Shown piece by piece: positions 8,301 to 46,821 of a stretch of 48,705 bases of DNA. Origin of the DNA: Limisphaerales bacterium (GTDB taxonomy: Bacteria; Verrucomicrobiota; Verrucomicrobiia; Limisphaerales; BOG-1460); contig PLQC01000038.1 of assembly GCA_003159675.1 (NCBI GenBank), forward strand, positions 7,759 through 56,463. Reading direction: 5' to 3'. The first letter of the stretch is position 1. Every line of letters begins with the position of its first letter. The notes under the pieces are model-generated. The model was given only the letters and a program-made list of their open reading frames with translations, was not told the origin of the DNA and ran no database searches. Position numbers and translations under genes: made by a program.

Positions 8301-8917
8301 TGCCCGGCCTGTTCGAACAACTCCGGCGCTGTTTCGAGGGCGGCGTCTGCCTGTTGGGCGTCGGCAACCCGGATTGCGGCGATGACGCCCTCGGCGTGCG
8401 CCTGGCGGAAGCCTTGACCGGAGCGCGGTCGCACATGGTCGCAGCCGTCCGGGAAGGCGAAGGCGTTGCGGCGGAGGACCGCCGCGTTCCAAAGCTCATC
8501 GTCGCGGGCGGGACGCCGGAGCGGTTCATTGGGCGTCTGATCGACGCCGGCTTCGACCATGTGATTTTTCTGGATGCGGTCGAATTCGGCGGCGACCCCG
8601 GCGCTGTTGTCTTTCTCGACTCGAAGCAAATGGCCGCCAGGTTCCCGCAGATTTCGACCCACAAGATTTCGCTCGGGTTGCTGGCCAGATGCCTTGAAGC
8701 CAATGGCCGAACCCGCGCCTGGCTGCTGGGAGTGCAGCCTGGATCACTCCAGCCGGGTGCCGGCCTGACGCCGGCGGTGCAAAACACTCTCAAAATCCTC
8801 ACCGAATTGTTAGGGAAAATGGCGGCGGCCAATCCGGCCGTGGCGCACTCCGCCCTTTCGGAGCGGCGGACGTTGCTCGGCGCGCCGATCGATGCTCCGC
8901 GTTCCGCGATCGCATGA
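8300..8917 (+). CDS. Hydrogenase maturation protease, HycI-like
   Basis: 205 residues, somewhat longer than usual for the HycI/HyaD endopeptidase family because of a C-terminal tail of about 40 residues. Family motifs: GVGNPDCGDDALGVRLAEAL (nickel-sensing Asp), FLDAVEFGGDPG (second metal-binding Asp) and STHKISLGLLA (His). It should remove the C-terminal extension of the HycE-like large subunit encoded 1.9 kb downstream, which has the expected cleavage region after DPCFSCTDR. The start overlaps the preceding stop in TGATG, and the stop overlaps the start of the HyfB-like gene by 4 bases. Confidence 0.88.
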   Translation: MPGLFEQLRRCFEGGVCLLGVGNPDCGDDALGVRLAEALTGARSHMVAAVREGEGVAAEDRRVPKLIVAGGTPERFIGRLIDAGFDHVIFLDAVEFGGDPGAVVFLDSKQMAARFPQISTHKISLGLLARCLEANGRTRAWLLGVQPGSLQPGAGLTPAVQNTLKILTELLGKMAAANPAVAHSALSERRTLLGAPIDAPRSAIA

Positions 8918-10833
8918 TCTCTCCCGAAAAAGCCGTTGTCGCCGCGATTCTCCTTTGTTTCGCCGGGGCGGTGCTGACGCTCGGGATCGCGCGCCTGAAG
9001 ACCCTGGCGGGCTGGCTCGCATTTGCCGTTACCGCGGCCACGGCCGGACTGATCTTCGCGGCGGTGGGCCGGGTGCTCGTTGCCGGACCGTCACCCGAGC
9101 CCGCCACATTCTGGGCCATGCCGGCCATCGGGTTCGCTCTCCGGGTTCACGTGGACGGATTGACGGCGATCTTCCTGCTGCTGGCGGCGCTGGTCGCGTT
9201 GCCCGCTTCGCTCTACTCGATTGCTTACATGAAGCACTACGGAGACTACGGTGTCGCCCGTTATTATCCGTACTTCCTTCTGTTCCTGGCTGCGATGTAC
9301 GGCCTGGTGAGCACCACCGACATGATGTGGTTCTTTTTCATTTTTTGGCAGATGATGACCCTGACGGGCTACGCCCTCATCCGCTTCGAGAAAAGGAAGC
9401 CCGAGAACATCCGCGCCGCAAACAAGTATCTCATGATGATGCAAATTGCCTGCGCCGCCACGATGATCGGCGCGGAGTTACTCGCCGGGGCGGGGACGCC
9501 GGCGAACGGCGGCGCGGCCCTGAAGTACGACTTCGGCACCGTGAGCGCAAACCTTCCGCTCCTGTTGCGCGCCCGGCCCGGGATGACCGCGCTCGCCTTC
9601 GGGCTGTTCCTGGTGGGGTTTGGCATCAAGATGGGGATGTGGCCGTTCGGACAGGTTTGGCTTCCGGATGCGCACCCGGCCGCGCCTTCGCCGGTGAGCG
9701 CGATGCTGTCCGGAGTCATGATCAAGACCGGCGTCTATGGCCTCCTGCGTTATTTCCTTTGGTTGGTGCCGCCCGTCGCTCAGGGGGACTATCCTGTCCG
9801 GAGCTGGGGCCTGGTCGTGGTCCTGCTTGGGACGCTCTCGCTCTTCACGGGGACGATGCAGGCGCTGAGCCAGGAACAGACGAAGCGTTTGCTCGCCTTC
9901 CACAGCATCGGCCAGATCGGCTATATTCTCCTGGGCACGGGGGTCTGCATGGTGATGCTGCCGGCGAGGGGACCCGATGCGGCGGCGCTGGCCACTCTGG
10001 GGTTATTTGGCGCCCTGTTCCACACCTTGAATCACGGTTTGTTCAAGGGACTGCTTTTCCTCAATGCGGGTTCGATGCTGCACGCCACCGGCACGCAAGA
10101 TTTGAACAAGATGGGCGGCTTGTTGAAGTTCATGCCGCTGACCGCCGCAACGACCCTCGTGGCTTCGTTCTCCATCTCGGGAGTACCCTTGTTCAACGGG
10201 TTCGCCAGCAAATGGTGCATTTATGTCGCGGCGGTGCAAGGGAGCCGGACGGCCGGGTACCTCGCCCCCTGCGCCGTCGTCGCCATTCTGACCAGCGCAC
10301 TCACCCTGGCATCGTTCATCAAGTTCTTCGGTGTGAGTTTTCTGTCGCGCCGGAGCCCGCTGGTGACCGCGCAAGCCGCGCGGCGGGGCAAACTCGATGT
10401 CGATTGGCGGATGCAGACGCCTCAAGTGTTCCTGGCGGCGCTGTGCCTGTTGCTGGGGCTCGTGCCGGCGATTGCTTTCCGTTTCATGCAGCAGGCGATG
10501 AACGCCAGCCGGCACGGTCTCGGCGCCGTGTTTGCGGACGCCGCGCCGGCATTGAACCCGCCCTGGACCGGGTTGCGGGCATTGGAGGGGCGGGCCCTGT
10601 TTGTCCCGGGAGCGCTCGCCGCCGTGGTGCTCGTGGCATTCCTCGGCGCGCGCGCCCTTTCAAGACTCGGTGGCGCGCGGCGCCGGGCCGTGGCGCCCTG
10701 GCTTTGCGGTTATGTCCGCGAGTCGGCATGTCACCACTATGTCGCGCATCATTTTTACGGGGAAATCAAGCGCTGTTTCCGCTGGCTCGGCGGCGCGCCG
10801 CAGCGCCCGCGCACAGGATCGAAAAAGACATGA
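8914..10833 (+). CDS. Membrane subunit HyfB/HycC-like (NuoL/MrpD family)
   Basis: 639-residue polytopic protein of the NuoL/NuoM/MrpD antiporter family, as found in hydrogenase-3/4 (HycC, HyfB). About 14-15 hydrophobic segments. Conserved family patches include GFGIKMGMWPFGQVWLPDAHPAAPSPVSAMLSGVM (given here over two motifs: the TM7 lysine region KMGMWPFG and the helix-breaking HPAAPSPVSAML), LAFHSIGQIGYI and LNHGLFKGLLF. These helices probably carry ion translocation driven by the hydrogenase reaction. It is encoded between the protease and the large-subunit gene with 4-base overlaps at both ends. Confidence 0.93.
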   Translation: MISPEKAVVAAILLCFAGAVLTLGIARLKTLAGWLAFAVTAATAGLIFAAVGRVLVAGPSPEPATFWAMPAIGFALRVHVDGLTAIFLLLAALVALPASLYSIAYMKHYGDYGVARYYPYFLLFLAAMYGLVSTTDMMWFFFIFWQMMTLTGYALIRFEKRKPENIRAANKYLMMMQIACAATMIGAELLAGAGTPANGGAALKYDFGTVSANLPLLLRARPGMTALAFGLFLVGFGIKMGMWPFGQVWLPDAHPAAPSPVSAMLSGVMIKTGVYGLLRYFLWLVPPVAQGDYPVRSWGLVVVLLGTLSLFTGTMQALSQEQTKRLLAFHSIGQIGYILLGTGVCMVMLPARGPDAAALATLGLFGALFHTLNHGLFKGLLFLNAGSMLHATGTQDLNKMGGLLKFMPLTAATTLVASFSISGVPLFNGFASKWCIYVAAVQGSRTAGYLAPCAVVAILTSALTLASFIKFFGVSFLSRRSPLVTAQAARRGKLDVDWRMQTPQVFLAALCLLLGLVPAIAFRFMQQAMNASRHGLGAVFADAAPALNPPWTGLRALEGRALFVPGALAAVVLVAFLGARALSRLGGARRRAVAPWLCGYVRESACHHYVAHHFYGEIKRCFRWLGGAPQRPRTGSKKT

Positions 10834-12503
10834 TCGCCCGCGAAAAGCTCAATCAACTGAAGGAAAAATTCGGTCCCGCCATCCAGCGGGCCGATCTGCC
10901 CGGAGAGGACCGGTTGTTCGTGTTCGTGGAGCCTTCGGCGCTGAAAGAAGTCTGCCGGTTTGTCTTCCGCGACCTCGACGGTCGGTACATCACCGGCATC
11001 GGCGCGGATGACCGTCCTTTTTCCGGGCAATTCATGGTCGCGCACACCTTCGCGTTCGACCGGGAACACCTGTTGTGCGGCATCCTGGTTTTCGTGCCGC
11101 CGGACCCTCCCCGCGTGGAGAGCATTTCGGACGCGGTGCCTGCGGCCAACTGGGCCGAGCGGGAATTCCGCGACCTGGTGGGAATCGAACCGGTGGGACA
11201 CGCGCATCCGAAACGGCTGGTGCTTCCTGACGGCTGGCCCGAAGGGGCGCATCCTCTCCGGAAGGATGTGCCCTGGAACGCGGTTCCCGAGGGATTCGAC
11301 GACGAGCGCGAGTTTGATTTCGACGAGCCGCCGGAGGGGTGCGTGGTGGTGCCGTTCGGCCCGTTTCACCCCACCCTCGATGAACCCGCGCACTTCCGGC
11401 TGTATGTCGAAGGCGAGACGGTGCGCGGCTGTGAATACCGGGGATTCATGGTGCATCGGGGCATCGAAAAGCTGGCGGAATCCGTGCTCACCTACAATGA
11501 AATACCGGTGATGGCGGAGCGCATCTGCGGCATCTGCGGCTGTGTTCACAACGTCGCTTACGCGCAGGCGGTGGAGAGCGCCGTCGGCCTCAGGGCGCCC
11601 CCGCGCGCGGAATTCCTGCGCACGCTGATGCTGGAACTCGAGCGCCTGCACAGTCATTTGCTCTGGGTCGGACTGGCCTGTCACATCGTGGGGTTCGACA
11701 CGCTGTTCATGCAGAGCTTCCGCATTCGCGAACCGGTCATGTGGATCGCGGAGAAGATCACCGGCAACCGCAAGACATACGGCCTGTGCGTCGTGGGCGG
11801 CGTCCACCGGGACCTGACGCCGGAGCTGGGCGCCGAACTCCGGCAGGTGCTTGACCGGCTGGAAGCGGAGTGGAGGGCGGTGACCGCCGCGGTGCTCAAG
11901 GACAGGAATATCCAGAAGCGCACCTGCGGCATCGGTGTCGCCGACCGGAAACTGGTGAAGGAAGCGGCGCTCATCGGCCCGATGGCGCGCGCGGCAGGCG
12001 TGGACATCGATTGTCGCCGCGATCATCCCTACGCCGCTTACGACCGGGTGGACTTCGAAGTGATCACCGCCGAAGACGGCGATGTCTGGTCGCGCATCGT
12101 GGTCCGCGCGAACGAAGTTTTCGAGTCGATCAAGATCATGCGCCAGTGTCTGGAGAAAATGGAAGACGGCCCGATCCAATTGTCGATCCAGGACGAGTTG
12201 CCGGCCGGCCGGCTGGGGATGTCCTCGGTCGAGGCGCCGCGTGGCGAGGCGCATCACTTCGTGATCACGGGCGAGAACAACCGTCCGCGCCGATGGCGGG
12301 TGCGCGCGCCGACCTACCAGAACCTGCAAGCGGTGCCGGCGATGATTAAAGATCAGCAACTGGCGGACATGACGATTTCGCTGGCCAGCATTGATCCGTG
12401 CTTTTCGTGCACCGATCGGCTGGAGACCGTGGATCTGAACTCGGGCACGACAAAGGTCTGGTCTGCGGAAGAACTGTCGCGACTGGCGAGGTGGAGGACA
12501 TGA
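10830..12503 (+). CDS. Group 4 [NiFe] hydrogenase large subunit, HycE-like (NuoC-NuoD fusion)
   Basis: 557 residues: an N-terminal NuoC-like 30-kDa domain (about 1-160, including AEREFRDLVGI) fused to a NuoD/hydrogenase large-subunit domain, the arrangement of HycE and HyfG. Nickel ligands are in RICGICGCVH and in DPCFSC (C524, C527). A 27-residue tail follows DPCFSCTDR, matching the point where HycI cuts E. coli HycE, so this protein should be processed by the protease at 8300-8917. The active site should reduce protons or oxidise H2 with electrons from the HycF/HycG-like clusters. The start ATG overlaps the stop of the membrane subunit gene. Confidence 0.95.
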   Translation: MIAREKLNQLKEKFGPAIQRADLPGEDRLFVFVEPSALKEVCRFVFRDLDGRYITGIGADDRPFSGQFMVAHTFAFDREHLLCGILVFVPPDPPRVESISDAVPAANWAEREFRDLVGIEPVGHAHPKRLVLPDGWPEGAHPLRKDVPWNAVPEGFDDEREFDFDEPPEGCVVVPFGPFHPTLDEPAHFRLYVEGETVRGCEYRGFMVHRGIEKLAESVLTYNEIPVMAERICGICGCVHNVAYAQAVESAVGLRAPPRAEFLRTLMLELERLHSHLLWVGLACHIVGFDTLFMQSFRIREPVMWIAEKITGNRKTYGLCVVGGVHRDLTPELGAELRQVLDRLEAEWRAVTAAVLKDRNIQKRTCGIGVADRKLVKEAALIGPMARAAGVDIDCRRDHPYAAYDRVDFEVITAEDGDVWSRIVVRANEVFESIKIMRQCLEKMEDGPIQLSIQDELPAGRLGMSSVEAPRGEAHHFVITGENNRPRRWRVRAPTYQNLQAVPAMIKDQQLADMTISLASIDPCFSCTDRLETVDLNSGTTKVWSAEELSRLARWRT

Positions 12504-12666
12504 GAACCGCCGATCGAAAGCCGAAGCATTCGCGGCCAACGGGCTGTCACGCAGGTTCTCGCCCTTGCGGGTTCAGGGGCGTATCCGGTCGCGCGAATCG
12601 ATTTGGGCCGGTGGAGAGCCGGACCTTTCGGCAGACGAAGGTGTCGGCGCCACCGGCCGCGTTGTT

Positions 12667-13587
12667 ATGAACATTCTGTGGATCATTCCCGGAGTCGCTG
12701 TCAACGCGGGACTTGTCCTGTTGGTGGCGCCGCTGTGTGAAGGCGTGCTTCGCAAAGTGACGGCAGTTGTCCAATCCCGAAGGGGACCGCCGCTCTGCCA
12801 GCCCTATTTCGATCTGCTGAAGCTGCTGGCCAAGGAGGACTTGGAATCGGGCGAAGCGCCTGTCGTGCAAAGGGCCGCGGCCTATTTGTCGCTGGCAACG
12901 GTGGTGACGGTGGCGGGTCTGGTGCCGATGGGCCTGGGGATTCCGATGAACGGGGTGGGTGACGTGATTCTACTGATCTACCTGCTGACGTTCTGCGGCA
13001 TTTGTACGCTGCTGGCGGGCCTGGCCGCCGGATCGACGTACTCGATCATCGGCATCAGCCGTGAAATGATGACGATGATTGCTCTGGAACCCTTGTTCGC
13101 CATCGCGCTCCTCATCGGCGTCCTCCACACGCAGTCGTTCCGCCTCGACGCGGTCTTGAAGGGGTCGGTTTATTCCGCTGACGGTTTTCCGTGGTCGGGT
13201 GTGATCATGGTGGGCGTGATGCTGCTGTCCTTCCAGGCGTTTGTGCAGCGGGTGCCTTTCGACACCTCCGAGGCCGAAACAGAACTCATGGAAGGTCCGC
13301 TCATGGAATATTCGGGGCCGAAATTGGCGTTGTTCAAATACGCGCAGATGGCCCGGTTGGTCATTCATAGCGCGCTATTTGTGGCCTTGTTTGTTCCATG
13401 GGGTTCGGCGTTTGTTTTCCCGGTGGGCTGGCTGTTGTTTTGGGCAAAGGTGGGGGTGCTGGTGCTGCTGGTCACCCTGGTGGCGGCCACTCACGCCCGC
13501 TACCGGATCGACCAGGCCCTCCACTATTTCGCCGGGCTGCTGCTGGTGGCGCTGGCGGCGCTGGTGCTCGCGGCCTATGGATATTGA
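12667..13587 (+). CDS. Membrane subunit HycD-like (NuoH family)
   Basis: 306 residues with about eight membrane helices, of the NuoH/HycD/HyfC family that anchors the peripheral hydrogenase arm. Family signatures: VVQSRRGPPLCQPYFDLLKLL in the first cytoplasmic loop (QSRRGPP and QPYFD), SREMMTMIALEP, and the acidic loop PFDTSEAETELMEGP. There is a 163-base gap after the large-subunit gene, in which I see no gene; the ATG at 12667 is chosen because homology begins there, although the frame is open further upstream. Part of the Hyc-like operon. Confidence 0.94.
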   Translation: MNILWIIPGVAVNAGLVLLVAPLCEGVLRKVTAVVQSRRGPPLCQPYFDLLKLLAKEDLESGEAPVVQRAAAYLSLATVVTVAGLVPMGLGIPMNGVGDVILLIYLLTFCGICTLLAGLAAGSTYSIIGISREMMTMIALEPLFAIALLIGVLHTQSFRLDAVLKGSVYSADGFPWSGVIMVGVMLLSFQAFVQRVPFDTSEAETELMEGPLMEYSGPKLALFKYAQMARLVIHSALFVALFVPWGSAFVFPVGWLLFWAKVGVLVLLVTLVAATHARYRIDQALHYFAGLLLVALAALVLAAYGY

Positions 13588-13635
13588 ACCGACAAACAGC
13601 CTCGATGAGGCGATCGAAAACGAGAGGGTTTTGCC

Positions 13636-14160
13636 ATGTCGCTAGCGAGCAAAATCAAAGAAACGTGGATCTGCCTGAAGGCGGGGCGGGTGACTCTGCC
13701 CTACCCGGCGCAAGCCCGGCCGGTGCCGGCGAATTTCCGCGGCCGGCCGATCTTCGATGCCGCGAAGTGCATCGGCTGCGCGGGCTGTGCGAACAATTGT
13801 CCGGCGCGGGAGATTCTCGTGTTCGACGTTTGCCAGGAGATCCGAATCCTGAAGTATCTCGGCCGTCGCTGCACCTACTGCGGGCGCTGCGCGGAGGTGT
13901 GTCCCGAGAAAGCGATCACGATGAGCCCGGAGTTCGAAACCGCCACCAACCACATCGGCGACCTCCAGCAACGGCTGGACCTTTTCATGAGCACCTGCCA
14001 GCGGTGCGGCCGCTGTTTCAAGGAACCTTCGGTATTGGAACAACTCAAGTTGAAAGGCTACCGGATGGACGATTTGGAAAACGAACGCTGGGTATTCCGT
14101 TCCCGCTCTTACCTCGAGAACGAGCCGGTGGTGGATGACATCCGGATTGAACTGGACTAG
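13636..14160 (+). CDS. Two-cluster ferredoxin subunit HycF-like (NuoI family)
   Basis: 174 residues with two classical [4Fe-4S] motifs, CIGCAGCANNCPAREI near residue 48 and CTYCGRCAEVCPEKAI near 78, as in HycF/NuoI. A third cysteine group, CQRCGRC near residue 120, is extra and may bind a further metal or cluster; its meaning is unknown. The protein should relay electrons from the FdhF/AsrA-like input to the HycG-like subunit. It follows the HycD-like gene by 48 bases on the same strand. Confidence 0.92.
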   Translation: MSLASKIKETWICLKAGRVTLPYPAQARPVPANFRGRPIFDAAKCIGCAGCANNCPAREILVFDVCQEIRILKYLGRRCTYCGRCAEVCPEKAITMSPEFETATNHIGDLQQRLDLFMSTCQRCGRCFKEPSVLEQLKLKGYRMDDLENERWVFRSRSYLENEPVVDDIRIELD

Positions 14161-14205
14161 AGGTCCGCTGCACATGTTACAGGACGTTGAAATGAAAAAA
14201 GGGCC

Positions 14206-14763
14206 ATGCTAAAGAATCTTTGCCAGAAAATGTTCGGCCGGTCGTTGTGGGTCTATCATGCCAACAGCGGCGGCTGCAACGGCTGTGACATCGAAGTGCT
14301 CAACGTGCTCACCCCGTATTACGACGTCGAGCGGTTCGGCATCAGGCTTGTGGGTTCTCCGCGCCACGCGGACGTCATGCTCTGCCAGGGCCCCGCGATG
14401 CGCTCGACGGCCCGGGCGCTGCAACGCGCCTATGAAGCCATGCCCGCCCCGAAGCTCGTGTTCGCCGTCGGCGGCTGCGCCTGTGGCGGCGGCATTTGGC
14501 GCGACAGTTACTCCGTGCTCGGGCCGGTCGAAAAAGTCATCCCGGTGAATTTCTATATTCCGGGATGCCCCCCCCGCCCCGAAGCCATCATCTATGGAGT
14601 GGCGATGGCCGTCGGCCTTGTCGACAAGAGAACCGCTCCGGTCGCGTTCAAACAATTGGAATTCCCGATTCCGCGCTATCATCCCGGCGACCTCCGCGGC
14701 CGGGATGAACTGGTGGTCTATGAGAAAACCCCAAAGGCGCAGGCGGCCCGCACCCCAGGTTGA
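14206..14763 (+). CDS. Group 4 hydrogenase small subunit HycG-like (NuoB family)
   Basis: 185 residues of the NuoB/HycG family, carrying the proximal [4Fe-4S] cluster next to the NiFe site. Cluster ligands are in SGGCNGCDIE, in VGGCACGGG and in PGCPPRPE. A purine-rich ribosome-binding region (GAAAAAAGGGCC) precedes the ATG. This is the last gene of the hydrogenase-3-like operon. It carries no extra domain, unlike the homologous gene of the second hydrogenase (19569-20543). Confidence 0.94.
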   Translation: MLKNLCQKMFGRSLWVYHANSGGCNGCDIEVLNVLTPYYDVERFGIRLVGSPRHADVMLCQGPAMRSTARALQRAYEAMPAPKLVFAVGGCACGGGIWRDSYSVLGPVEKVIPVNFYIPGCPPRPEAIIYGVAMAVGLVDKRTAPVAFKQLEFPIPRYHPGDLRGRDELVVYEKTPKAQAARTPG

Positions 14764-15111: not shown

Positions 15112-15453
15112 ATGCACGAGTTATCCATCATGCAGAGCGCATTGAACCAGGCGCTGGATCAGGCACGCCAGGCCGGGGCGGTCCGGGTCCATGAGATTCG
15201 CCTACGGATCGGAGTGTTGAGCGGCGTGGTGCCTGAGGCGCTGCAGTTTGCGTTCGAGGCCCTCTCGGACGGCACGCCGGCCGAAGGCGGACGACTGACC
15301 ATCGAGCACGTCCCGGCACGATTCTGGTGCGCGACATGCAACCGCGAATTTGAAGCCATCCGCTTGTTCACCGAGTGCCCCGAATGCCACAACCCGAGCG
15401 GAGAACTCCGTTCGGGTCGGGAACTGGAACTGGCTTCGCTGGAGGTTGACTGA
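15112..15453 (+). CDS. hypA: HypA, nickel delivery protein
   Basis: 113 residues. HypA works with HypB to insert nickel into the hydrogenase large-subunit precursor. It starts MHELSIMQ, with His2 and Glu3 of the nickel site, and carries a zinc-binding pair of CxxC motifs (CATC and CPEC) in the C-terminal half. The start at 15112 is fixed by the MHELS motif although the frame is open upstream. The stop overlaps the hypB start. Located between the two group 4 operons and separate from hypFCDE, which lies 11 kb away on the other strand. Confidence 0.96.
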
Positions 15454-16295
15454 TGTGCCAAGACTGCGGATGCGGGCTGCCCGGAGAGAAGCCGGTTGGC
15501 ATTTCAACTCACCCTCACACCCACGACCACGATCACCCTCACCACGACCCTCATGATCACGGTCATTCGCACGGAGAATCGGGCGACCCTCACGAACACG
15601 CCGAAGACCACGAGCATCGGCGGACTCTCGAGGTGAGGCGCTCCATCCTGGACAAGAACGACCGGCTGGCCGAACGCAACCGCGGCTTTTTCCGCGCGCG
15701 CGGCTTGTTGGTCCTCAATGTTCTTTCATCCCCCGGTTCGGGCAAAACCACCCTCCTTCGCGAAACCATCCGGAGGTTGGGAAGCCGCCTGAAAACCGGC
15801 GTCATCGTCGGCGACCTGGCCACGGACAACGACGCCCGGCGCCTGGGCGAAGCGGGGGCGACGGCGGTCCAGATCACCACCGGCACGGTCTGCCATCTCG
15901 AAGCGGAGATGGTGGCGCGTGCTTTGAAGCAGCTGGACCTGACCGGCGTGGGTCTGCTCGTCATCGAGAACGTCGGGAACCTGGTTTGTCCGGCCTCCTA
16001 TGATCTGGGTGAAGACCTGCGTGTCGTCCTGTTGTCGGTCACGGAAGGCGAAGACAAGCCGCTGAAGTATCCGCCCATATTTCAATCTGCCGGGGTGGCT
16101 GTGGTCACCAAGATGGACCTTGCCCAGGCATGCGATTACGACCGAGATACAGCGATCGCCAACCTTCGGCGTGTCGCCGCGAATGCGCCGGTATTCGAGA
16201 TCTCGGCCAAAACCGGCCAGGGCATGGACGCCTGGTGCGATTTTTTGGTTCGGCAGCATCAAGCGCTGAAGACACGCGATCCGTTGGGCCTTTAG
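15453..16295 (+). CDS. hypB: HypB, nickel-binding GTPase
   Basis: 280 residues. GTPase that loads nickel during hydrogenase maturation. The N terminus has the CxxCGC motif (CQDCGCG) for high-affinity metal binding. A long histidine-rich stretch follows (about residues 19-55, alternating His with Asp and Pro), a nickel-storage feature of some HypB proteins. The G domain shows the P-loop [11 protein letters not shown], a DLATDNDA switch region and the TKMDLA base-recognition motif (NKxD variant). Overlaps hypA by one base. No transcription terminator with a clear T-run is seen after it. Confidence 0.97.
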
Positions 16296-16757: not shown

Positions 16758-18653
16758 ATGCGCATTCTTATGACACTCGTCCTGGCATTAATTCTGGTCC
16801 CCATCGGCGCAGGCCTGATGCTGGGGTGTGTGCGGCTCGACACGCTCCGCAAAGTCGTGGTGGGAGCGGTAACGCTGGCGGTCTTCTGCGGCACCCTGGC
16901 TCTGGCGGCCAGGCCGACTCCAGTCGATTCCGGAGTGGTTCCATTCAATCACCATTGGCTCAACCTGGGCATGCTGCTGGTCGAGATCGGGATGGGCCTT
17001 TATGTGATCGTCGTCGGTGTGCGTTCGCGGCGCCCTCTCATTGTGGCGCTCATGCTGGCTCAGGGGGGATTGATGCTCTGGTTCGAGCTGACGCAAGGCC
17101 CGCGCCTGGAGGCGGCGCACGATCTGTTCGTGGACAACTTTTCATTGATCATGGCCCTGATCAACGGCGTGGTGGGCGGCGGCATCTGCCTCTACGCGCT
17201 CGGCTACATGCGCGAGTACCACGAAGTTGCTCACCGCGATGTTCCGGACCGACGGCCGCTGTTCTTCGCGTTGCTGTTTATCTTCATGGGGGCGATGTTC
17301 GGGCTGGTTTTTGCCAACAATTTGATGTGGCTGTTTCTCTTCTGGGAGATCACCACGCTCTGCTCCTTTCTGCTGATCGGTTACACACAGACACCCGAGG
17401 CGCGACGGAATGCATTGAGGGCGCTCGTCATGAACCTGGCCGGCGGCCTCGCCTTCGCGCTGGCCATCGTCTGGTTCCATGACAACGCCGACAGCATCGA
17501 GCTGCAGACGCTGATCACCTCGAAGCAGTCCCTCGCGCTGGTCCCGGCGGCGCTGCTCTGCTTCGCGGGTATCACCAAATCGGCCCAGCTTCCCTTCTCG
17601 AGCTGGCTGCTGGGCGCGATGGTGGCGCCCACGCCGGTGTCGGCACTGCTGCACTCGAGCACCATGGTGAAAGCGGGTGTCTATCTCGTGCTCCGCATGG
17701 CCCCGGCGGTGACGGGCACGACCGTCGGTCTGATGGTGGCGCTGGTCGGCGGCGTCACGTTCGTGATCGGCTCGATGGCGGCCATCACGACGAGCGAGGC
17801 CAAGCGCGTCCTGGCCTGGTCCACGGTCGCCAACCTCGGGCTCATCGTGCTGTGCGGCGGGATCGGGACGGGCGAAGCCGTCTGGGCGGGGATGTTGTTA
17901 ATCGTGTTTCACGCGGTGGCCAAGTGCCTGTTGTTCCTCTGCGTGGGGGTGGTCGAGCACAAGCTGCACAGCCGCGACATCGAGGCGATGTCCGGGCTGA
18001 TCGTGAACCTGCCGCGAGTCGCGGTGATGATGCTGGTCGGCATGGCCGGCATGTTCCTGGCGCCCTTCGGCATGCTGATCAGCAAATGGGCCGTGCTCAA
18101 AGCCGTGGTGGATGCCTCGCCGCTGTTGTCCGTCTTCATCGTCTTCGGCAGTTCCGCGACGCTGTTCTTTTGGGTGAAATGGATGGGCAAGCTGTTGGAA
18201 GTGGTGGAACCGCAACGCCGGATCGAAGAGAAACTGGCGCTGGGCGAGTCCATCGCGCTTTACGGCCTGTCCGCGGCGACGTTTCTGGCGTGCCTGTTTT
18301 TCCCGCTCATTTCATCCCGCTTCATCGAGCCGTATGTCCTGAGTGTTTATGGTCAGACTGCATCCCTGGGTCAGGGCAATCTCCTCATCATGACCATCAT
18401 GATGATCTTCGTCCTGCTCTTTCCGCTCAGCTTTGTCTGGTACGGCCGCGGCGTCAAGGTGGTGGACGCCTACCTGGGCGGCGCAAACGTCCGAGGCGGC
18501 GTTGGCTTCACCGGTTCAGCCGGCCAGGTGCAGGAAGTGAATCTCCACAATTATTACTTTCGCGGCCTGCTCGACGAGGCCGGGCTTTGCCGCTGCGGCG
18601 TCATCGGCTGCTCGATTGTGTTGGCGGTGATGGCGGCGGCGGCACTCGTATGA
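16758..18653 (+). CDS. Ech-like hydrogenase membrane subunit A (NuoL/MrpD family)
   Basis: 631-residue polytopic membrane protein of the proton-translocating NuoL family, about the length of EchA. About 14-16 hydrophobic segments. Family features include LFLFWEITTLCSFLLIG, ITKSAQLPFSSWLLGAMVAPTPVSALLHSS (seen as the patches KSAQLPFSSWL and PTPVSALLHSSTMVKAG) and FHAVAKCLLFLCVG. It opens the second group 4 hydrogenase operon. By analogy with Ech from Methanosarcina and Thermoanaerobacter, the complex would couple ferredoxin oxidation and H2 evolution to ion transport, but direction and ion cannot be read here. Confidence 0.92.
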   Translation: MRILMTLVLALILVPIGAGLMLGCVRLDTLRKVVVGAVTLAVFCGTLALAARPTPVDSGVVPFNHHWLNLGMLLVEIGMGLYVIVVGVRSRRPLIVALMLAQGGLMLWFELTQGPRLEAAHDLFVDNFSLIMALINGVVGGGICLYALGYMREYHEVAHRDVPDRRPLFFALLFIFMGAMFGLVFANNLMWLFLFWEITTLCSFLLIGYTQTPEARRNALRALVMNLAGGLAFALAIVWFHDNADSIELQTLITSKQSLALVPAALLCFAGITKSAQLPFSSWLLGAMVAPTPVSALLHSSTMVKAGVYLVLRMAPAVTGTTVGLMVALVGGVTFVIGSMAAITTSEAKRVLAWSTVANLGLIVLCGGIGTGEAVWAGMLLIVFHAVAKCLLFLCVGVVEHKLHSRDIEAMSGLIVNLPRVAVMMLVGMAGMFLAPFGMLISKWAVLKAVVDASPLLSVFIVFGSSATLFFWVKWMGKLLEVVEPQRRIEEKLALGESIALYGLSAATFLACLFFPLISSRFIEPYVLSVYGQTASLGQGNLLIMTIMMIFVLLFPLSFVWYGRGVKVVDAYLGGANVRGGVGFTGSAGQVQEVNLHNYYFRGLLDEAGLCRCGVIGCSIVLAVMAAAALV

Positions 18654-18708: not shown

Positions 18709-19560
18709 ATGAGCTCCTGGATTCGTTTGCTGATTTATTTGATCGCGGCGCCGGTTGTCGGTGGGCTGCTGGCCGGTTGGGACCGCCGGATCTCCGCGCG
18801 CATGCAGTCGCGTCGCGGGCCGCCCATTTTTCAGCCGTTTTATGACGTGCGGAAGCTCTGGCAGAAACAGAGCATCGTCGTCCGCCGTTCGCAGAACTTT
18901 TACATCCTTTTCTTCCTGCTGCTGGTGATCTTCACCGGCGCCCTGTTTTTCGCCGGGTCGGACCTGCTGCTGGTGATATTCGCCCTGACGCTCGCGGCCA
19001 TTTTCTTCGTGCTCGGCGCCTACAAAGCCAGTTCCCCGTACAGCTTCATCGGGGCGGAACGCGAATTGATCCTGATGATGGCGTATGAGCCCATGATCCT
19101 GTTGACGGCGATTGGCATGTACATGGTGACGAAAAGTTTTTACGTCCACGATATCGCCAGCCATGCCACGCTGCTCGTGCTGGCGTTGCCAGGGGTTTTC
19201 CTCGGATTCCTCTACACGCTGGAAATCAAGTTCCGCAAATCGCCCTTCGACCTGTCCTCATCGCACCACGCCCATCAGGAACTGGTGCGCGGGATCACCA
19301 CCGAGTTTTCCGGCCGGGCGCTGGCCCTGGTTGAAATCGCGCATTGGTACGAGAACGTCTTCCTGCTGGGATGGGTCTATCTCTTCTTCGCCTCCTCGCC
19401 GCTCCTGGGCGTGGCGGTGTCGCTGCTGGTATTTGTGCTGGTGATACTGACGGACAATGTGTTTGCCCGGCTCAAATGGCAGACGGCTCTCCGGAGCGCC
19501 TGGGTTGTGGCCGCAGTGCTGGGCTTTGGAAACATCCTCGTCCTGTCCCTCTTGCGCTAG
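18709..19560 (+). CDS. Ech-like hydrogenase membrane subunit B (NuoH family)
   Basis: 283 residues, about eight helices, of the EchB/NuoH family. Signatures: MQSRRGPPIFQPFYDVRKL in the first loop (QSRRGPP, QPFYD), ERELILMMAYEPM, and KFRKSPFDLSSSHHAHQELVRG, the acidic/His loop that contacts the hydrogenase arm. It anchors the small and large subunits in the membrane. It is separated from the A subunit gene by 55 bases and from the small-subunit gene by 8 bases. Confidence 0.94.
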   Translation: MSSWIRLLIYLIAAPVVGGLLAGWDRRISARMQSRRGPPIFQPFYDVRKLWQKQSIVVRRSQNFYILFFLLLVIFTGALFFAGSDLLLVIFALTLAAIFFVLGAYKASSPYSFIGAERELILMMAYEPMILLTAIGMYMVTKSFYVHDIASHATLLVLALPGVFLGFLYTLEIKFRKSPFDLSSSHHAHQELVRGITTEFSGRALALVEIAHWYENVFLLGWVYLFFASSPLLGVAVSLLVFVLVILTDNVFARLKWQTALRSAWVVAAVLGFGNILVLSLLR

Positions 19561-19568
19561 GAGCGACC

Positions 19569-20543
19569 ATGGCTGGCATCAAACAATCTCCGTGGATCCT
19601 CCACTACGACGCTTCGAGTTGCAACGGTTGCGACATCGAAACGCTGGCGTGCCTGACGCCGGTGTTCGATGTCGAGCGCCTGGGCGTGATCAACACCGGC
19701 AACCCGAAGCATGCCGACATCTTCCTGGTGACCGGCGCGGTGAACGAGCAGAGCAAGGACGTCATCCGTAACCTCTACCGGCAAATGCCGGAGCCCAAGG
19801 TGGTGGTCGCCATCGGAGCCTGTGCCGCCACCGGCGGCGTCTTCCGCGAGTGCTACAACATCTCCGGCGGTGTGGACAGCGTCATCCCCGTGGATGTCTT
19901 CGTCCCGGGCTGCGCCGCCCGGCCGGAAGCCATCATCGATGGAGTCGTCCGGGCCCTGGCGGTCCTTGAGGAACGGCAACGCGACACGGCCGCCGCGGCC
20001 GGCAGCATGGACCAGGTTCTTTACCTGCGGGCACAGAAAAGCAACGCGCCCCAAATCCTCGCGCTGCAAAAGGCCGCTTACCAGAGCGAAGCCGGAATTT
20101 ACGGCGACGAGGGTCTCCCGGCGCTGCAGCAAACGCTGGAGGAGCTGGAGGATGAATTCGACCGCCGGCCCAACCGCGAGGCCAGCTCCCTGGGCGCCCG
20201 CGAAACGCGGAAAGATCCCGAGAAAGACCGCGATCACGTCGTTTTCCTCAAGGCCGTTGTCAACGGCAGGATCATCGGCGCCGTGCGCGGCTACGAGGTG
20301 GACGACACGGCCTACCTGAGCCGCGTCATCGTTCATCCTTATTTCCAGGGCATGGGCATCGGCCGCCGCTTGACGGAGGAGATCGAAAAGGCGTTTCCCG
20401 GCGTGAAGCGCTTCGAGATCTTCACCGGCCACCGGAACGAACGGAACCTCCGCCAGTTTCGCAAGCTGGGATACCAGGAATTCAAGACGGAACCGTTCAC
20501 GCCCGCGATCACGTGGATTTATCTGCAAAAGGAACGCCCATGA
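19569..20543 (+). CDS. Ech-like hydrogenase small subunit fused to a GNAT acetyltransferase
   Basis: 324 residues with two unrelated parts in one open frame. Residues 1 to about 135 are a complete EchC/NuoB-type small subunit with cluster ligands C18, C21, C85 and C115 (SSCNGCDIE, IGACAATGG, VPGCAARPE). After a linker (LEERQRDTAAAAG), residues about 147-324 form a GNAT acetyltransferase: ILALQKAAYQSEA, VFLKAVVNGRIIGAVRGYE, the acetyl-CoA loop HPYFQGMGIGRRL, and FEIFTGHRNERNLRQFRKLGY. An internal ATG (20007) sits at the domain border but has no ribosome-binding site, so a true fusion is favoured. A charged insertion of about 25 residues sits inside the GNAT part. The stop overlaps the EchD-like start. 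Confidence 0.9.
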   Translation: MAGIKQSPWILHYDASSCNGCDIETLACLTPVFDVERLGVINTGNPKHADIFLVTGAVNEQSKDVIRNLYRQMPEPKVVVAIGACAATGGVFRECYNISGGVDSVIPVDVFVPGCAARPEAIIDGVVRALAVLEERQRDTAAAAGSMDQVLYLRAQKSNAPQILALQKAAYQSEAGIYGDEGLPALQQTLEELEDEFDRRPNREASSLGARETRKDPEKDRDHVVFLKAVVNGRIIGAVRGYEVDDTAYLSRVIVHPYFQGMGIGRRLTEEIEKAFPGVKRFEIFTGHRNERNLRQFRKLGYQEFKTEPFTPAITWIYLQKERP

Positions 20544-20935
20544 ACCCCGAACCGATCGAGCTCATCACCCTCGACACCCTGCTCGACAAGGTCCGGGCCA
20601 AACGCGAGGCAGGCTGTCGCCTGGTTCAGGTCAGCGCCACCCGGCTCCCCGACCAGGTCGAGTTGACCTATAGCTTCGATCTCAACAGCCGGCTTGCCAG
20701 CCTTCGTCTGTCACTGCCCGGCGCCGCGCCGCGCGTGCCGAGTATCAGCGGGATTTACGGCTGCGCGTTCCTTTACGAGAACGAGATCCACGATTTGTTC
20801 AATGTGCAGGTGGACGGCATGGCGGTGGACTTCAAGGGCAACTTGTACAAGCTGGCGGTCCGGTTCCCGTTCGGGAGCACCCAGGCGCCCTGCGCCCCGA
20901 CCGGCGCCGCCCCGGCCGCGACCCCAACCCAATAG
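20540..20935 (+). CDS. Ech-like hydrogenase subunit D (NuoC family)
   Basis: 131 residues of the 30-kDa NuoC/EchD family, much shorter than the HycE N-terminal domain. The signature is SISGIYGCAFLYENEIHDLFNVQV near residues 70-90, matching the family pattern ExExxDLFG/N. The last 20 residues are rich in Ala, Pro and Thr and look like a flexible tail. The start at 20540 overlaps the stop of the fusion gene in ATGA. In the Ech complex this subunit supports the large subunit. It lies 6 bases ahead of the large-subunit gene. Confidence 0.88.
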   Translation: MNPEPIELITLDTLLDKVRAKREAGCRLVQVSATRLPDQVELTYSFDLNSRLASLRLSLPGAAPRVPSISGIYGCAFLYENEIHDLFNVQVDGMAVDFKGNLYKLAVRFPFGSTQAPCAPTGAAPAATPTQ

Positions 20936-20941: not shown

Positions 20942-22018
20942 ATGCCGCGCACCATCATCCCCTTCGGCCCGCAACACCCGGTCCTGCCGGAACCGATCCA
21001 TCTGGACCTGGTCGTCGAGGACGAGAAAGTGGTCGAGGCGCGGCCGTCCATCGGATTCGTCCATCGCGGGCTGGAGAAGCTGGCCGAGAAGAAGGATTAC
21101 GTGGAATTTGTCTATGTGGCCGAGCGGATTTGCGGCATCTGCAGTTTCATTCATGGACAGACCTATTGCCAGGCGATCGAAACCCTCATGAACGTCCAGG
21201 TGCCGCCGCGCGCGCTCTACCTGCGGACCGCCTGGGGCGAACTCTCGCGCATCCACAGCCACCTGCTCTGGCTGGGGCTGATGGCGGACGGCATGGGCTT
21301 TGAAAGTCTCTTCATGCACTCGTGGCGCGTGCGCGAAAAGGTGCTGAATATCATCGAGGCCACCACCGGCGGCCGCGTCATCTTCGGCTCATGCAAAATC
21401 GGCGGCGTGCGGCGCGACATGAATGCCGAAACCATCCGGAACCTTCTCCAGGAGCTGGACGCAATTGAGAAGGACATGCGGCAGATCACCCGGGTTTTTC
21501 TCGACGACAACTCGGTGAAGTCGCGCCTCTCCGGCATCGGCGTTCTCCCGAAACAGGAGGCCCACGACCTCGGCTGTGTCGGTCCGATGCTGCGGGCCAG
21601 CGGGGTGGCGCAGGACATGCGCACACTCGGCTATGCCGCGTTCAAAGATATCGGGGTCGAGCCGGTCACGCGCGCCGAAGGCGATTGCTACGCCCGCTGC
21701 GCCGTGCGCTGCGAGGAGCTGTTCCAATCCGTGGGGATCATCCGGCAGGCGCTCGAGAAGATCCCGGACGGCGACATCGCCGTGAAAGTAACGGGCAACC
21801 CGGCCGGGGAAACCATCGCGCGCACCGAGCAGCCGCGCGGCGAGGTCGTCTATCACCTGAAAGCCAACGGGACGAAAAACCTGCAGCGGTTCCGGGTGCG
21901 CACCCCGACGTTCGCCAATCTCCCCGCCATGTTGAAAGTCCTGCCCGGCTGCGACCTGGCCGATGTGCCGATGATTGTGCTCACGATCGACCCGTGCATC
22001 AGTTGCGCGGAAAGGTGA
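20942..22018 (+). CDS. Ech-like [NiFe] hydrogenase large subunit
   Basis: 358 residues of the EchE/CooH/NuoD family. The four nickel-binding cysteines are in RICGIC (C64, C67) and DPCISC (C352, C355). The protein ends at DPCISCAER with no C-terminal extension, so maturation does not need an endopeptidase; this contrasts with the HycE-like and HoxH-like proteins of the same window. Other family patches: GPQHPVLPEPIHLDL at the N terminus and RIHSHLLWLGLMAD. Operon order A-B-C-D-E-F is that of the ech genes of Methanosarcina. Confidence 0.95.
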   Translation: MPRTIIPFGPQHPVLPEPIHLDLVVEDEKVVEARPSIGFVHRGLEKLAEKKDYVEFVYVAERICGICSFIHGQTYCQAIETLMNVQVPPRALYLRTAWGELSRIHSHLLWLGLMADGMGFESLFMHSWRVREKVLNIIEATTGGRVIFGSCKIGGVRRDMNAETIRNLLQELDAIEKDMRQITRVFLDDNSVKSRLSGIGVLPKQEAHDLGCVGPMLRASGVAQDMRTLGYAAFKDIGVEPVTRAEGDCYARCAVRCEELFQSVGIIRQALEKIPDGDIAVKVTGNPAGETIARTEQPRGEVVYHLKANGTKNLQRFRVRTPTFANLPAMLKVLPGCDLADVPMIVLTIDPCISCAER

Positions 22019-22019: not shown

Positions 22020-22349
22020 ATGGGTTATTTCGAAATGTCGAAGCTGGCCTTGAAGTGGGCGCTCACCAAACCGCCGACGAGCCGCTACCCGTTCGAGCCG
22101 CGCCGCGCCCTCGCCGGGTCGCGCGGACAATTGGTTTTCACCAAGGACAGTTGCGTCTATTGCACCGTTTGCGCCAAGAAGTGTCCCACTGGCGCGCTGC
22201 TGGTGAACCGGGCGCAAAAGAAATGGGCGATCGACCGACTGCGTTGCATCTCCTGCGGCTATTGCGTGGAGATCTGTCCCAAGAAATCGCTCGATCTTTC
22301 CACGAGTCACGGCAGCCCCGCGGTGACGCGGGACCGGGAGTTTCACTAA
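22020..22349 (+). CDS. Ech-like hydrogenase subunit F, two [4Fe-4S] ferredoxin
   Basis: 109 residues, EchF/NuoI type. Two ferredoxin motifs, CVYCTVCAKKCPTGAL near residue 42 and CISCGYCVEICPKKSL near 78. It should pass electrons from soluble ferredoxin to the small subunit. The ATG at 22020 immediately follows the EchE-like stop; homology begins there although the frame is open upstream. It is the last gene of the operon; a repeat-rich stretch follows with no obvious terminator. Confidence 0.93.
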   Translation: MGYFEMSKLALKWALTKPPTSRYPFEPRRALAGSRGQLVFTKDSCVYCTVCAKKCPTGALLVNRAQKKWAIDRLRCISCGYCVEICPKKSLDLSTSHGSPAVTRDREFH

Positions 22350-22672: not shown

Positions 22673-22704
22673 ATGTTGACATACATCATAGTTATAGGTA
22701 TTAT
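22673..22704 (+). promoter_or_regulatory. padR promoter with overlapping dyad operator
   Basis: A near-consensus sigma-70 promoter: TTGACA at 22676-22681, a 17-base spacer, TATTAT at 22699-22704. A perfect inverted repeat TGATGT-N6-ACATCA covers 22672-22689, so it overlaps the -35 box. PadR regulators bind ATGT/ACAT dyads, so this is a good candidate for self-repression. The predicted transcription start is at about 22711, right at the ATG at 22712, and no ribosome-binding site is present: the message may be leaderless. Confidence 0.7.
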
Positions 22705-22711
22705 CGCCGCG

Positions 22712-23047
22712 ATGAAGAAAACCAACCCCAGTTTTTTGAACGGCGTCCCGGAGCTGCTGGTGCTGCGCCTGCTTTCCCGCCGTGAGATGTATGGTTACCA
22801 GATCGTGGACGAAATCCGGACCCAAACCCGGGAGACCTTGTCTTTTGGCGAAGGCTGCGTCTATCCCTACCTTCATTACCTTGAAGCGCAAAAACAGGTG
22901 AGCAGCCAGCGGCGGGAAGTGGATGGACGGAATCGGAATTATTACAAACTCACCACACGCGGAGGAAAACGGCTTGAAGAATTGACCTCGGAGTGGAAAC
23001 GCGTTACGGCCGGCGTCGCGCTATTGATGGAGGGACAACATGCCTAG
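22712..23047 (+). CDS. PadR-family transcriptional regulator
   Basis: 111 residues, a short PadR winged-helix protein. It opens FLNGVPELLVLRLLSRREMYGYQIVDEI, the family N-terminal helix pair (patches LLVLRLLS and MYGYQI), then SFGEGCVYPYLHYLEAQ (recognition helix) and RNYYKLTTRGGKRLEEL (wing). It probably represses its own promoter and the membrane protein gene that it overlaps by 8 bases. PadR genes paired with HAAS-domain membrane proteins are common and usually respond to envelope or drug stress; the signal here is unknown. It has no evident connection to the hydrogenases. Confidence 0.9.
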   Translation: MKKTNPSFLNGVPELLVLRLLSRREMYGYQIVDEIRTQTRETLSFGEGCVYPYLHYLEAQKQVSSQRREVDGRNRNYYKLTTRGGKRLEELTSEWKRVTAGVALLMEGQHA

Positions 23048-23738
23048 AACTGATTTCATTGAACGAATGCGCCGGCGGTTGGTGGAACTGGGCTGCCCCG
23101 TGGCACACGTGCGTCGGCTGGTTCAAGAAGTTGCCGACCACCGCGAGGACTTGAAACAAGCGGCATTGTCCGAGGGATTGTCCGGGGCCGATGCGGAGCT
23201 GAGCGCAAACACAAAGCTCGGAGACCCGCTGGATCTGGCCGAACAACTGATGGTGGCACTGCGACGCTCGTCCTGGTGGGGCCGTCATTTTCTCATCGGT
23301 TTTTGTCTGCTGCCGCTTTTGGCCGTTCCGGTGCTATGGGTCTTGCTGCTGTTCCTTGGCCTAGCGCTGGCGTTCGCGTTGGGTTACGGCTGGGATGTTC
23401 AGAAGCTCCATGTTGCAGCCGCCAGCCCTGTTCCATTTCATCATCTAGTTATCGCAGCTCACATTGCTGACTTTGTCGCGATTGCTCTGGTGACTCTTCT
23501 GTTCTGTGGGCTGGCACGCCGATCGGCTGTGAGCCTCAAGTGGATGGTGACCGCATGTGCCGTCTGTTCACTTTATGCCCTGTTCACCCGGTTCCACCTT
23601 GAGCCACATTCTTTTATGCTAGGTATCGCTCCGAGTCCACAATGGCTCAGAGCGGCAGTCCCGCTGCTGATCGCCGGAGCCGTCTATGCCTTCCACCGGC
23701 GAACGATACAGGGTTTCCACGAGAACGTGCTGGGTTAG
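23040..23738 (+). CDS. HAAS-type membrane protein partnered with PadR
   Basis: 232 residues. The first 75 are soluble and helical (FIERMRRRLVELGCP, VADHREDLKQAALSEG, KLGDPLDLAEQLM), matching the HAAS/permease-prefix domain that accompanies PadR regulators. The rest has about four membrane helices (near residues 82-115, 140-160, 168-185 and 205-222). It starts within the padR gene, so the two are co-translated. No enzyme motif is visible. Probably a membrane partner of the PadR response; the exact role is unknown. Confidence 0.75.
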   Translation: MPRTDFIERMRRRLVELGCPVAHVRRLVQEVADHREDLKQAALSEGLSGADAELSANTKLGDPLDLAEQLMVALRRSSWWGRHFLIGFCLLPLLAVPVLWVLLLFLGLALAFALGYGWDVQKLHVAAASPVPFHHLVIAAHIADFVAIALVTLLFCGLARRSAVSLKWMVTACAVCSLYALFTRFHLEPHSFMLGIAPSPQWLRAAVPLLIAGAVYAFHRRTIQGFHENVLG

Positions 23739-27479: not shown

Positions 27480-28906
<1,427 letters not shown>

Positions 28907-28910
<4 letters not shown>

Positions 28911-29449
28911 CCAAATTTGATGTTCGCTCCGGTCAGTTGCGCGCTTTTGCCGGCCAGGACCTGTTCCAGGAGCAATTTGATGCGCGCGGCCGGGGGCGGG
29001 CAGCCGGGGAGGAACACCTCCACGGGCACCAACTCGTGCACCGGGGTGACGCGCGGCGTTAGCTTGGGGACAATGCCCGGCTCGAGCGGAAACTGGGGCG
29101 CGACGTCCGCGGCATCCTTGTAGGCCCGCTGCAGGACGTTCTCCGGGTCGCCCAACGGATTGCGCATGGCGGTGACGTTGCCGGTCACGGCGCAGTCGCC
29201 GAACGCGACGACGATCTTCGTGTTTTTCCGGACGCGGCGCATCATTTCCACATGGTCTTCATTGGCGATGGCGCCTTCGACGAGAACGACATCCACGTTC
29301 TCCGGGTATTCCTTGATGTCCATGACGGGGCTATAGACGATCTCGGCGGCGGCGGCGAGGTCGATGAGCCATTCGTCCAGGTCCAGGAACGACATATGAC
29401 ATCCGGAACAGCCGCCCAGCCAGACCGTAGCTACTTTCAAGCGATCCAT
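28907..29449 (-). CDS. hoxY: NAD-linked hydrogenase small subunit, HoxY-like
   Basis: 180 residues. Cluster ligands in [11 protein letters not shown] at the N terminus, in FGDCAVTGN and in [11 protein letters not shown]. This short small subunit carries only the proximal [4Fe-4S] cluster, as in HoxY, and has no twin-arginine signal, so the enzyme is cytoplasmic. The ATG at 29447-29449 lies within the end of hoxU. Homology begins at [13 protein letters not shown] although the frame extends upstream. Confidence 0.92.
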
Positions 29450-30153
29450 TGTTTTTTCTCCCGTGCGGTGACGATGAATTCGAGTTTCTGGCGATCGTGC
29501 TCCATTTCGCCGACGCTGGAGCCCCGGCTGAACAGAGCGCCTGTGGGGCAGGCGTCCACGCATTTGCCGCATGACGTGCAGGTGTCGGAACTGCCCCAGG
29601 GCTGGTTCAAATCGGAAATGATCCTGGAGTTCACGCCGCGGCCGGAGACGTTTTTGGTGCCGGCGCCTTCGATGTGCCAGCAGGCGCGGACGCAGCGGGT
29701 GCACAGAATGCAGCGGTTGTGGTCCATCCCATAGCGCGGATGTGTGTTGTCCACCTCCCATCGCGGGGAGCGATAATCGAAGCGGACGTGGTCCATCCCG
29801 TGCGTCCAGGCCAGCGTCTGCAATTCGCAATGCCCATTCGAGACGCAGACGGCGCAGACGTGGTTCCGCTCGGCAAAGAGCAGTTCGAGGATCATCCGGC
29901 GGTATTTCCGCAGGCGCTCGCTGTCCGTCGTCACCTCCATGCCCTCGGAGACCCGGGTCGTGCAGGCCGGCAGGAGTTTCGAAACGCCGGCGACTTCCAC
30001 GAGGCACAGGCGGCAGGCGCTGACGTCGTAAACGCCCTCCATATGGCAGAGCGTTGGGATTTTGATCCCGGCTTCCTCGGCGGCCTGGAGGAGCGTCGCG
30101 CCCTCGAACGCGCTGATTTGTTTACCGTCAATCGTCAGTGTCTTTGCGGCCAT
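29437..30153 (-). CDS. hoxU: Diaphorase iron-sulfur subunit, HoxU-like (NuoG N-terminal type)
   Basis: 238 residues. N-terminal [2Fe-2S] ferredoxin domain ([19 protein letters not shown], and a fourth Cys in LLPACTT), then the His-Cys3 cluster region ([13 protein letters not shown]) and two [4Fe-4S] motifs, [11 protein letters not shown] and [16 protein letters not shown]. It links the flavin subunit HoxF to HoxY. It lies 5 bases after hoxF and overlaps hoxY. Confidence 0.94.
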
Positions 30154-30158
30154 AAAAG

Positions 30159-31790
30159 TTAACTGGGTGTGGCGTTCGCCTCGCCATTCGGCCCGTGAAC
30201 CTCCGGGCCGAGCAATTCGAGGTATTCGTTGCGGAAAAACCGCAGCGTGCTGAGCACGGGATTGGGCGCGGTCTGGCCGAGGCCGCAGAGGCTGGTGTTT
30301 CGGACCATGTCACACAGCTCCTCGAGCTTCCGCAAATCGACGGCGGTCGCTTTGCGCGCCAGAATCTTGCTCAACAAGTGATACATCTGCACGGTGCCCG
30401 CCCGGCATGGGACGCATTTGCCGCAGGATTCGTCCATGCAGAACTCCATGAAAAACCGGGCCACGTCCACCATCCGGGTGGTGTCGTCCATGACGATCAT
30501 TCCGCCCGAGCCCATGATGGAACCGAGCTTCGCGAGGGACTCGTAGTCCACCGGCGTGTCCAGGGATGCGGCCGGAATGCAACCCCCCGAAGGGCCGCCG
30601 GTCTGCACGGCCTTGATGCTGCCCCCGTCCGGCGCGCCACCGCCCATGTTCTCCACGATCTGGCGCAGCGAGGTGCCCATCGGAACCTCGATCAGCCCGG
30701 TATTGGTTATATTGCCCGCCAGCGCAAAAACCTTGGTGCCCTTGCTCTTCTCCGTTCCGATCGACGCGAACCAATCCGCCCCCTTGCGAACGATCGACGG
30801 GACATTGGCGAACGTCTCGACGTTGTTGATGAGCGTCGGGCAGCCCCACAATCCGCTTTCGGCTGGGAACGGCGGCCGCGGGCGCGGCGTGCCGCGTTTG
30901 CCTTCCACGGACATCATCAGGGCCGTTTCCTCACCGCAAACGAACGCGCCGGCGCCGATGCGCAGGTCAATGTTGAACGTGAACGGCGATTCGAAAATGC
31001 CGCTGCCGAGCAGGCCGCGTTCCTTCGCCTGCTTGATGGCGGTCTGGAGGCGGCTGATCGCCAGCGGATATTCGGCGCGGACATAGATGAATCCCTGGGC
31101 CGCGCCGACGGCATAGGCGGCGATGGCCATGCCTTCGAGCACGCTGTGCGGGTCGCTTTCCAGAACGCTGCGGTCCATGAAAGCGCCGGGGTCGCCTTCG
31201 TCGGCGTTACAGATGACGTATTTGTGGCTGTTTTCCGTCTTGGCCACCGTTCCCCATTTCAGGCCGGTCGGGAAGCCCGCGCCCCCGCGGCCGCGCAGGC
31301 CGCTTTTGATGATCTCATCGACGACCTCCTTCGGCGTCATTTCCCGCAGGACTTCGTGCAGGGCTTTGTAACCGTCCGCGGCGATGTAGGAATCGATGCG
31401 TTCGGGATCGACGCAACCGCTGTTGGCGAGCACGATGGAAAACTGGCCGGTGAAAAACGGGCTGTTTGGATCGCCGCGTTGGGCCTGGGTTTGGCCGCCT
31501 TTGACCGTGCCGACGACCGAAGCGGCGTCTTCCGGAGCGACTCTTTCGTAGAGGGCGCCCGCCGGATCCACCTGCACGAGCGGGCCCTGGCAGCACAATC
31601 TCATGCAACCGACCCCCCGCACTTCGACCAACTCGTCGAGGCCCGCCTCCTTGACGGCTGTTTCGAGGCCTTTCTTCACCGCTTCGGAGTTGGAGGACAT
31701 GCATCCGGCCGCCATGCAGCAGCGGATGGTGAATTTCTTGCGGGAAGCGCGCTCTTTTGTGGCAATCTCGATCAGATCGTCAATGATCAT
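30159..31790 (-). CDS. hoxF: Diaphorase flavin subunit, HoxF-like (NuoF type)
   Basis: 543 residues. An N-terminal thioredoxin-like [2Fe-2S] domain ([10 protein letters not shown] and [12 protein letters not shown]) precedes the NuoF core: [16 protein letters not shown] for [18 protein letters not shown] for [24 protein letters not shown] (patches [18 protein letters not shown]) and the [4Fe-4S] motif [13 protein letters not shown] with a fourth Cys in [12 protein letters not shown]. It oxidises or reduces NAD(H). It lacks the C-terminal double-ferredoxin domain that HydB of electron-bifurcating hydrogenases carries, which favours a plain Hox enzyme. Overlaps hoxE by 11 bases. Confidence 0.94.
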
Positions 31791-42925: not shown

Positions 42926-42948
42926 CCTTTCCATATCCCAATTAAATT

Positions 42949-46142: not shown

Positions 46143-46145
46143 TTC

Positions 46146-46793: not shown

Positions 46794-46821
46794 CCCTCAA
46801 CGCTCAACTCCCGACCCTCAA
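46794..46821. repeat. Heptanucleotide repeat between cas4 and cas1
   Basis: Four period-7 units: CCCTCAA, CGCTCAA, CTCCCGA, CCCTCAA. It fills the whole 33-base space from the cas4 stop to the TTG start of cas1, leaving no ribosome-binding site. Confidence 0.75.

Follow-up and report, generated by a model that had tools for sequence, protein, structure and literature searches.

Ech hydrogenases, with representatives in Methanosarcina and Acetivibrio/Thermoanaerobacter, consist of six subunits encoded in the order A-B-C-D-E-F, with cluster cysteines in EchC and CxxC motifs in EchE. Among solved structures, MbhJ and MbhL of the membrane-bound hydrogenase Mbh (6CFW) come closest to EchC and EchE. 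How Ech-type hydrogenases are controlled after translation has, to our knowledge, hardly been explored. The initial annotation knew of no Ech complex with a GNAT domain, and none was found in the open-licence PMC literature; one paper lists, though not for Ech, a GNAT family near hydrogenases. The operon described here has the Ech gene order and motifs and encodes an EchC subunit that continues in frame into a GNAT domain. The favoured reading, with a probability of roughly 0.45, is that the fused GNAT is an accessory acyl-CoA-binding regulatory module of Ech, acquired once in the ancestor of one clade.

The window (the whole stretch of DNA analysed, 48,705 nucleotides) contains six tightly packed genes on the forward strand in the canonical Ech order A-B-C(GNAT)-D-E-F. 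An EchA-like, NuoL/antiporter-type membrane subunit (16758..18653; Pfam Proton_antipo_M and gene order) is followed by an EchB-like, NuoH-type membrane subunit (18709..19560; Pfam NADHdh and gene order), the fused echC-gnat (19569..20543; Pfam and full-length relatives), an EchD-like, NuoC-type subunit (20540..20935; Pfam Complex1_30kDa), an EchE-like large subunit (20942..22018; best PDB match MbhL, 6cfw_L) and an EchF-like, NuoI-type 2x[4Fe-4S] ferredoxin subunit (22020..22349; Pfam Fer4 families in two stretches). EchE has both Ni-binding CxxC motifs, RICGIC and DPCISC, and so reads as part of a true [NiFe] hydrogenase, not of a complex I remnant. Ni-insertion maturation genes hypA and hypB, recognised by reading the sequence, are located directly upstream of the ech genes (15112..16295, +); the same placement is repeated at another locus (L152). 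The operon groups with methanogen and clostridial Ech homologues in a tree whose rows hold no characterised Ech. Subunit order, EchC cysteines, EchE CxxC motifs and tree position all agree with the Ech class, and the fused protein is the predicted EchC subunit of an Ech-type energy-converting [NiFe] hydrogenase.

Other genes of the window are as follows. A PadR-type regulator and then a small membrane protein lie directly 3' of echF (22700-23738, +). A second complex-I-like [NiFe] hydrogenase operon (4341-14763, +), with a formate-dehydrogenase-like gene next to it, resembles a system of the formate hydrogenlyase type; Oxidored_q6 is the sole Pfam match of its small subunit (14206-14763), which has no GNAT tail, as initially annotated. 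The third hydrogenase (27480-31790, -), with large and small subunits and HoxU/HoxF-like diaphorase genes, is apparently NAD-linked and bidirectional. An apparent type I-C CRISPR-Cas system with cas8c and cas7 and with cas3- and cas1-like genes was read by eye at 40262-47912 (+).

The echC-gnat gene is a single open frame on the forward strand, read and translated as 324 amino acids; the in-frame fusion first noted there is borne out by the frame and by both Pfam domains. A Shine-Dalgarno-like TAGGAG stands about 6 bases 5' of the start; at the other end, stop and echD start share the sequence ATGA (20540-20543). The EchC part, residues 1-145 (19569..20003, +), matches Oxidored_q6 at residues 18-127 (E 3e-30); the GNAT part, residues 148-324 (20010..20540, +), matches Acetyltransf_1 at residues 198-302 (E 3e-13), both over the curated cut-off. 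The four cysteines of the proximal [4Fe-4S] cluster named in the initial annotation (C18, C21, C85, C115) are present and do not vary across 30 aligned EchC sequences. The GNAT part contains the acetyl-CoA loop at residues 256-268 (HPYFQGMGIGRRL), with the P-loop Q260-G-M-G-I-G265, and carries F297 at the usual tyrosine position.

The AlphaFold single-chain model has a mean pLDDT of 78.5 and a pTM of 0.63. Residues 32-43 and 204-216 are unreliable, the latter within an insert missing from most relatives. The EchC fold is present, and its long final helix (119-145) is joined to the GNAT domain with hardly any linker. The top Foldseek match of the EchC half is MbhJ (6cfw_J, 55% identity). The GNAT half aligns with TA0374 (3f0a) in VIA (Z 21.0, rmsd 2.3, 153 residues aligned; alignment rows span residues 147-324, the EchC half being judged by Foldseek). 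VIA alignment and Pfam together place it in the GNAT superfamily fold. The domain had been called complete; this holds for the fold and fails for the usual catalytic tyrosine, which is Phe here.

Full-length relatives of 66-71% identity are known from sequence records. The one-frame fusion is present in at least 33 genome loci (29 aligned after duplicate removal, plus G177, G344, G314 and G523), in canonical Ech order wherever flanks permit; the two-domain architecture thus recurs in ech operons of other genomes. A same-order search of 97 genomes gave seven further genomes with the fusion; in G042 the direct orthologue is unfused. A species-level scan (one genome per species, two peptide patterns; counts are lower bounds) gave at least 23 loci with a single-frame fusion, L055 among them ended by the contig end, and at least 57 loci without GNAT, chiefly in Methanomicrobiales and Clostridia. 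Among 388 genomes sampled from the phylum, 8 match the whole fusion and the remaining matches cover the EchC part only. By record title (most records are MAGs), carriers are labelled Verrucomicrobiota, Lentisphaerota, Planctomycetota, Omnitrophota, Fibrobacterota and Spirochaetota; with six labelled phyla, the fusion is a widespread variant and not an oddity.

The source genome is a draft of 182 contigs, which might suggest an assembly join, or a missed stop or frameshift merging two genes. That reading is refuted, its probability being negligible: full-length relatives occur in many genomes, and two carriers, G177 (6.0 Mb) and G314 (4.7 Mb), are each assembled as one contig, which is evidence against misassembly. 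A split into two genes at the junction is ruled out, as none occurs in any relative and both domains are in a single frame in the 29 aligned proteins. The ATG at 20007, initially proposed as a possible separate start, is not conserved, since seven relatives read CTC, TTG, ATT or ATC there. In unfused orthologues the junction holds no GNAT: echC runs into echD by an ATGA overlap in G042, and the two frames overlap in L093. No stand-alone GNAT gene next to ech, as a precursor state, was found among the sampled loci.

Two further features of EchC or Ech frames were observed. In several ech operons with the GNAT fusion (L037:7108-9987, L040:7138-9987, L041:7156-9987, L042:7156-9987, L196:3496-6558), EchA and EchB share a single frame of about 940-1020 aa, a predicted second fusion in the GNAT-fused clade. 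EchC of Clostridiales Family XIII (L099, L102, L112) has C-terminal extensions of about 100-115 residues without a GNAT match.

The EchC-only tree is poorly resolved; resolution was obtained by concatenating EchB, EchC and EchE. All sampled fusions fall within one clade (support 97/99), which is separated from remoter homologues in the same phylum, and the remaining unfused Ech, same-phylum ones included, fall outside. The only unfused rows within the clade are L032 (genome G042), nested in starred branches, and L093. At least three changes of fusion state are required over this tree; they are best read as one GNAT gain and two losses, the simplest reading, although change counts alone cannot separate gain from loss. 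In G042 the domain is missing from echC and no family member occurs elsewhere in the genome; a search for the family in the L093 genome gave no match. Loss in two lineages while the operon stayed makes the domain accessory, which favours a CoA-binding regulatory module. These natural losses are ready comparisons for the fused forms.

Fused GNATs are separated from their stand-alone relatives in the GNAT tree (88/87, not starred), and the fused domain is, judging from its sequence, a descendant of that stand-alone GNAT family. Two apparent stand-alone GNATs (L166, L171) were rejected; most likely both are fragments of L055, the fusion in the same genome that a contig end cuts. In the loci examined, no stand-alone relative is near ech genes and no recurrent partner gene was found among the neighbours; the ancestral activity therefore probably had nothing to do with the hydrogenase. 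The same distribution would suit a GNAT that acts on a small molecule or another cell protein and is merely tethered to Ech for location or co-expression. However, the fusion is kept over the six labelled phyla, always at EchC and never as a separate gene near ech, and such tethering is distinctly improbable.

Purifying selection acts on the GNAT domain: among the computable pairs, dN/dS is 0.04-0.10 there and 0.005-0.03 in the EchC part. The P-loop pattern Q/R-x-x-G-x-G/A fits 25 of 31 fusions and all 20 stand-alones, and reads QGMGIG in this protein. It is degenerate in 6 of 31 fusions; W, E or H replaces Q/R in some, so that CoA binding may be weak in those. G263, Q188 and K228 are present in 31/31 fusions and R240 in 29/31, the last three matching the stand-alones; A155, Q167, Q188, K228, R240, G263, E273, Y302 and K321 are common to stand-alone and fused forms. 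The degenerate P-loops, together with the rigid helix link of the model, would be expected of a structural or assembly aid, the GNAT fold being a scaffold that steadies the EchC-EchD-EchE arm or guides maturation. Such a role is improbable, since the CoA-loop glycine and pocket residues are invariant and unfused members of the same clade manage without the domain.

The general-acid tyrosine of the motif-B helix, its position defined by alignment with the Tyr of YpeA MYERLGY, is present in 20/20 stand-alones versus 16/31 fusions. It is absent from 15/31 fusions through at least four changes, and F297 replaces it here. According to a review, tyrosine is the general acid in 62% of characterised GNATs, and some work without it (PMC4964394); this common, not universal, mark of a catalytically active GNAT is lacking in the present protein. 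Because the P-loop is mostly kept and the tyrosine repeatedly lost, acyl-CoA binding is probably retained in the fused GNAT, and efficient acetyl transfer is doubtful in the window's own subclade. With P-loop and tyrosine both kept in 15 of 31 fusions, many of these domains may be active acetyltransferases of the ordinary kind.

True acetylation of a subunit or of ferredoxin is the main rival to the regulatory module. The domain would be an active acetyltransferase whose target, a lysine or the N-terminus, lies on an Ech subunit or on the partner ferredoxin; the modification would switch activity with acetyl-CoA, and a SIR2 enzyme may undo it. This is consistent with the full GNAT fold, with the fusions that keep P-loop and tyrosine, with pocket residues held in common with the stand-alone family and with a SIR2 homologue in the genome. 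It is rather unlikely, given the repeated tyrosine loss, which includes this protein, and given that no EchA-F lysine is both fusion-specific and lost with the domain. Lysine co-variation across EchA-F gave no convincing target, EchB K106 alone being fusion-enriched. This residue is Lys in 24/24 fused-clade EchB with a residue there and Ser, Ala or Val in unfused Ech; it is retained in unfused L032 and is Arg in unfused L093. EchB K106 is a clade marker.

With the CoA loop largely kept, the tyrosine lost repeatedly, no dedicated lysine and two domain losses, the evidence leans slightly towards sensing or regulation. Of the two functions put forward in the initial annotation, acetyl-CoA sensing is thereby somewhat favoured over acetylation of a subunit or ferredoxin, both still being proposals. 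CoA binding, a regulatory role, its direction and its target are what we infer from these comparisons. Under the favoured reading of a regulatory module, the ancestor of one Ech clade would have gained, once, a C-terminal GNAT domain from the stand-alone family. The domain would bind acyl-CoA, most likely acetyl-CoA; fixed to EchC, the neighbour of the large subunit, it would tune ferredoxin-dependent H2 production or its reversal, in step with the acyl-CoA state. For roughly half of the members, the present EchC-GNAT among them, the mode of action may be binding and not efficient acetyl transfer, in the manner of PanZ, a GNAT that regulates PanD in a CoA-dependent way without acetylating it (PMC4410942). 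The genome itself encodes PFOR-family proteins, acetate kinase and a SIR2 protein, which fits a fermentative acetyl-CoA-ferredoxin link, short of proof.

A conserved predicted CoA-binding domain on the cluster subunit suggests a testable route by which a fermenting cell could match its H2 output to acetyl-CoA. The stronger proposition, that a built-in sensor derived from the GNAT lets acetyl-CoA directly gate an ion-pumping complex-I-like hydrogenase across the Ech clade, is less likely than not. If true, fermentation state would set H2 production in an Ech clade spanning several phyla.

Compared with known systems, the operon departs from Ech in the GNAT on EchC, which is absent from all unfused EchC (at least 57) among the matches listed. 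Mbh differs in its matched small-subunit chain, whose 143 residues leave no room for a GNAT domain. The stand-alone GNAT family with the motif AYQSEAxLYxD..PLxQTL, putative source of the fused domain, has the conserved residues in common, but is encoded by separate genes not near ech and has the acid tyrosine throughout. PanZ/PanM resembles the fused domain by analogy, as a GNAT fold used for CoA-dependent regulation (PMC4410942), but is a separate protein with another partner; the Pfam PanZ match to EchC-GNAT is weak, just over the cut-off, and the score against the NCBIfam PanM equivalog is 20.9 bits (22.6 for the GNAT domain alone) at a cut-off of 68. The pseudo-HAT of O-GlcNAcase is likewise a GNAT-like domain appended to an unrelated enzyme (PMC12494797); enzyme and lineage differ, and the P-loop is mostly intact in the Ech fusions. 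The fused form adds a variant to the Ech hydrogenases and does not constitute a separate type of system.
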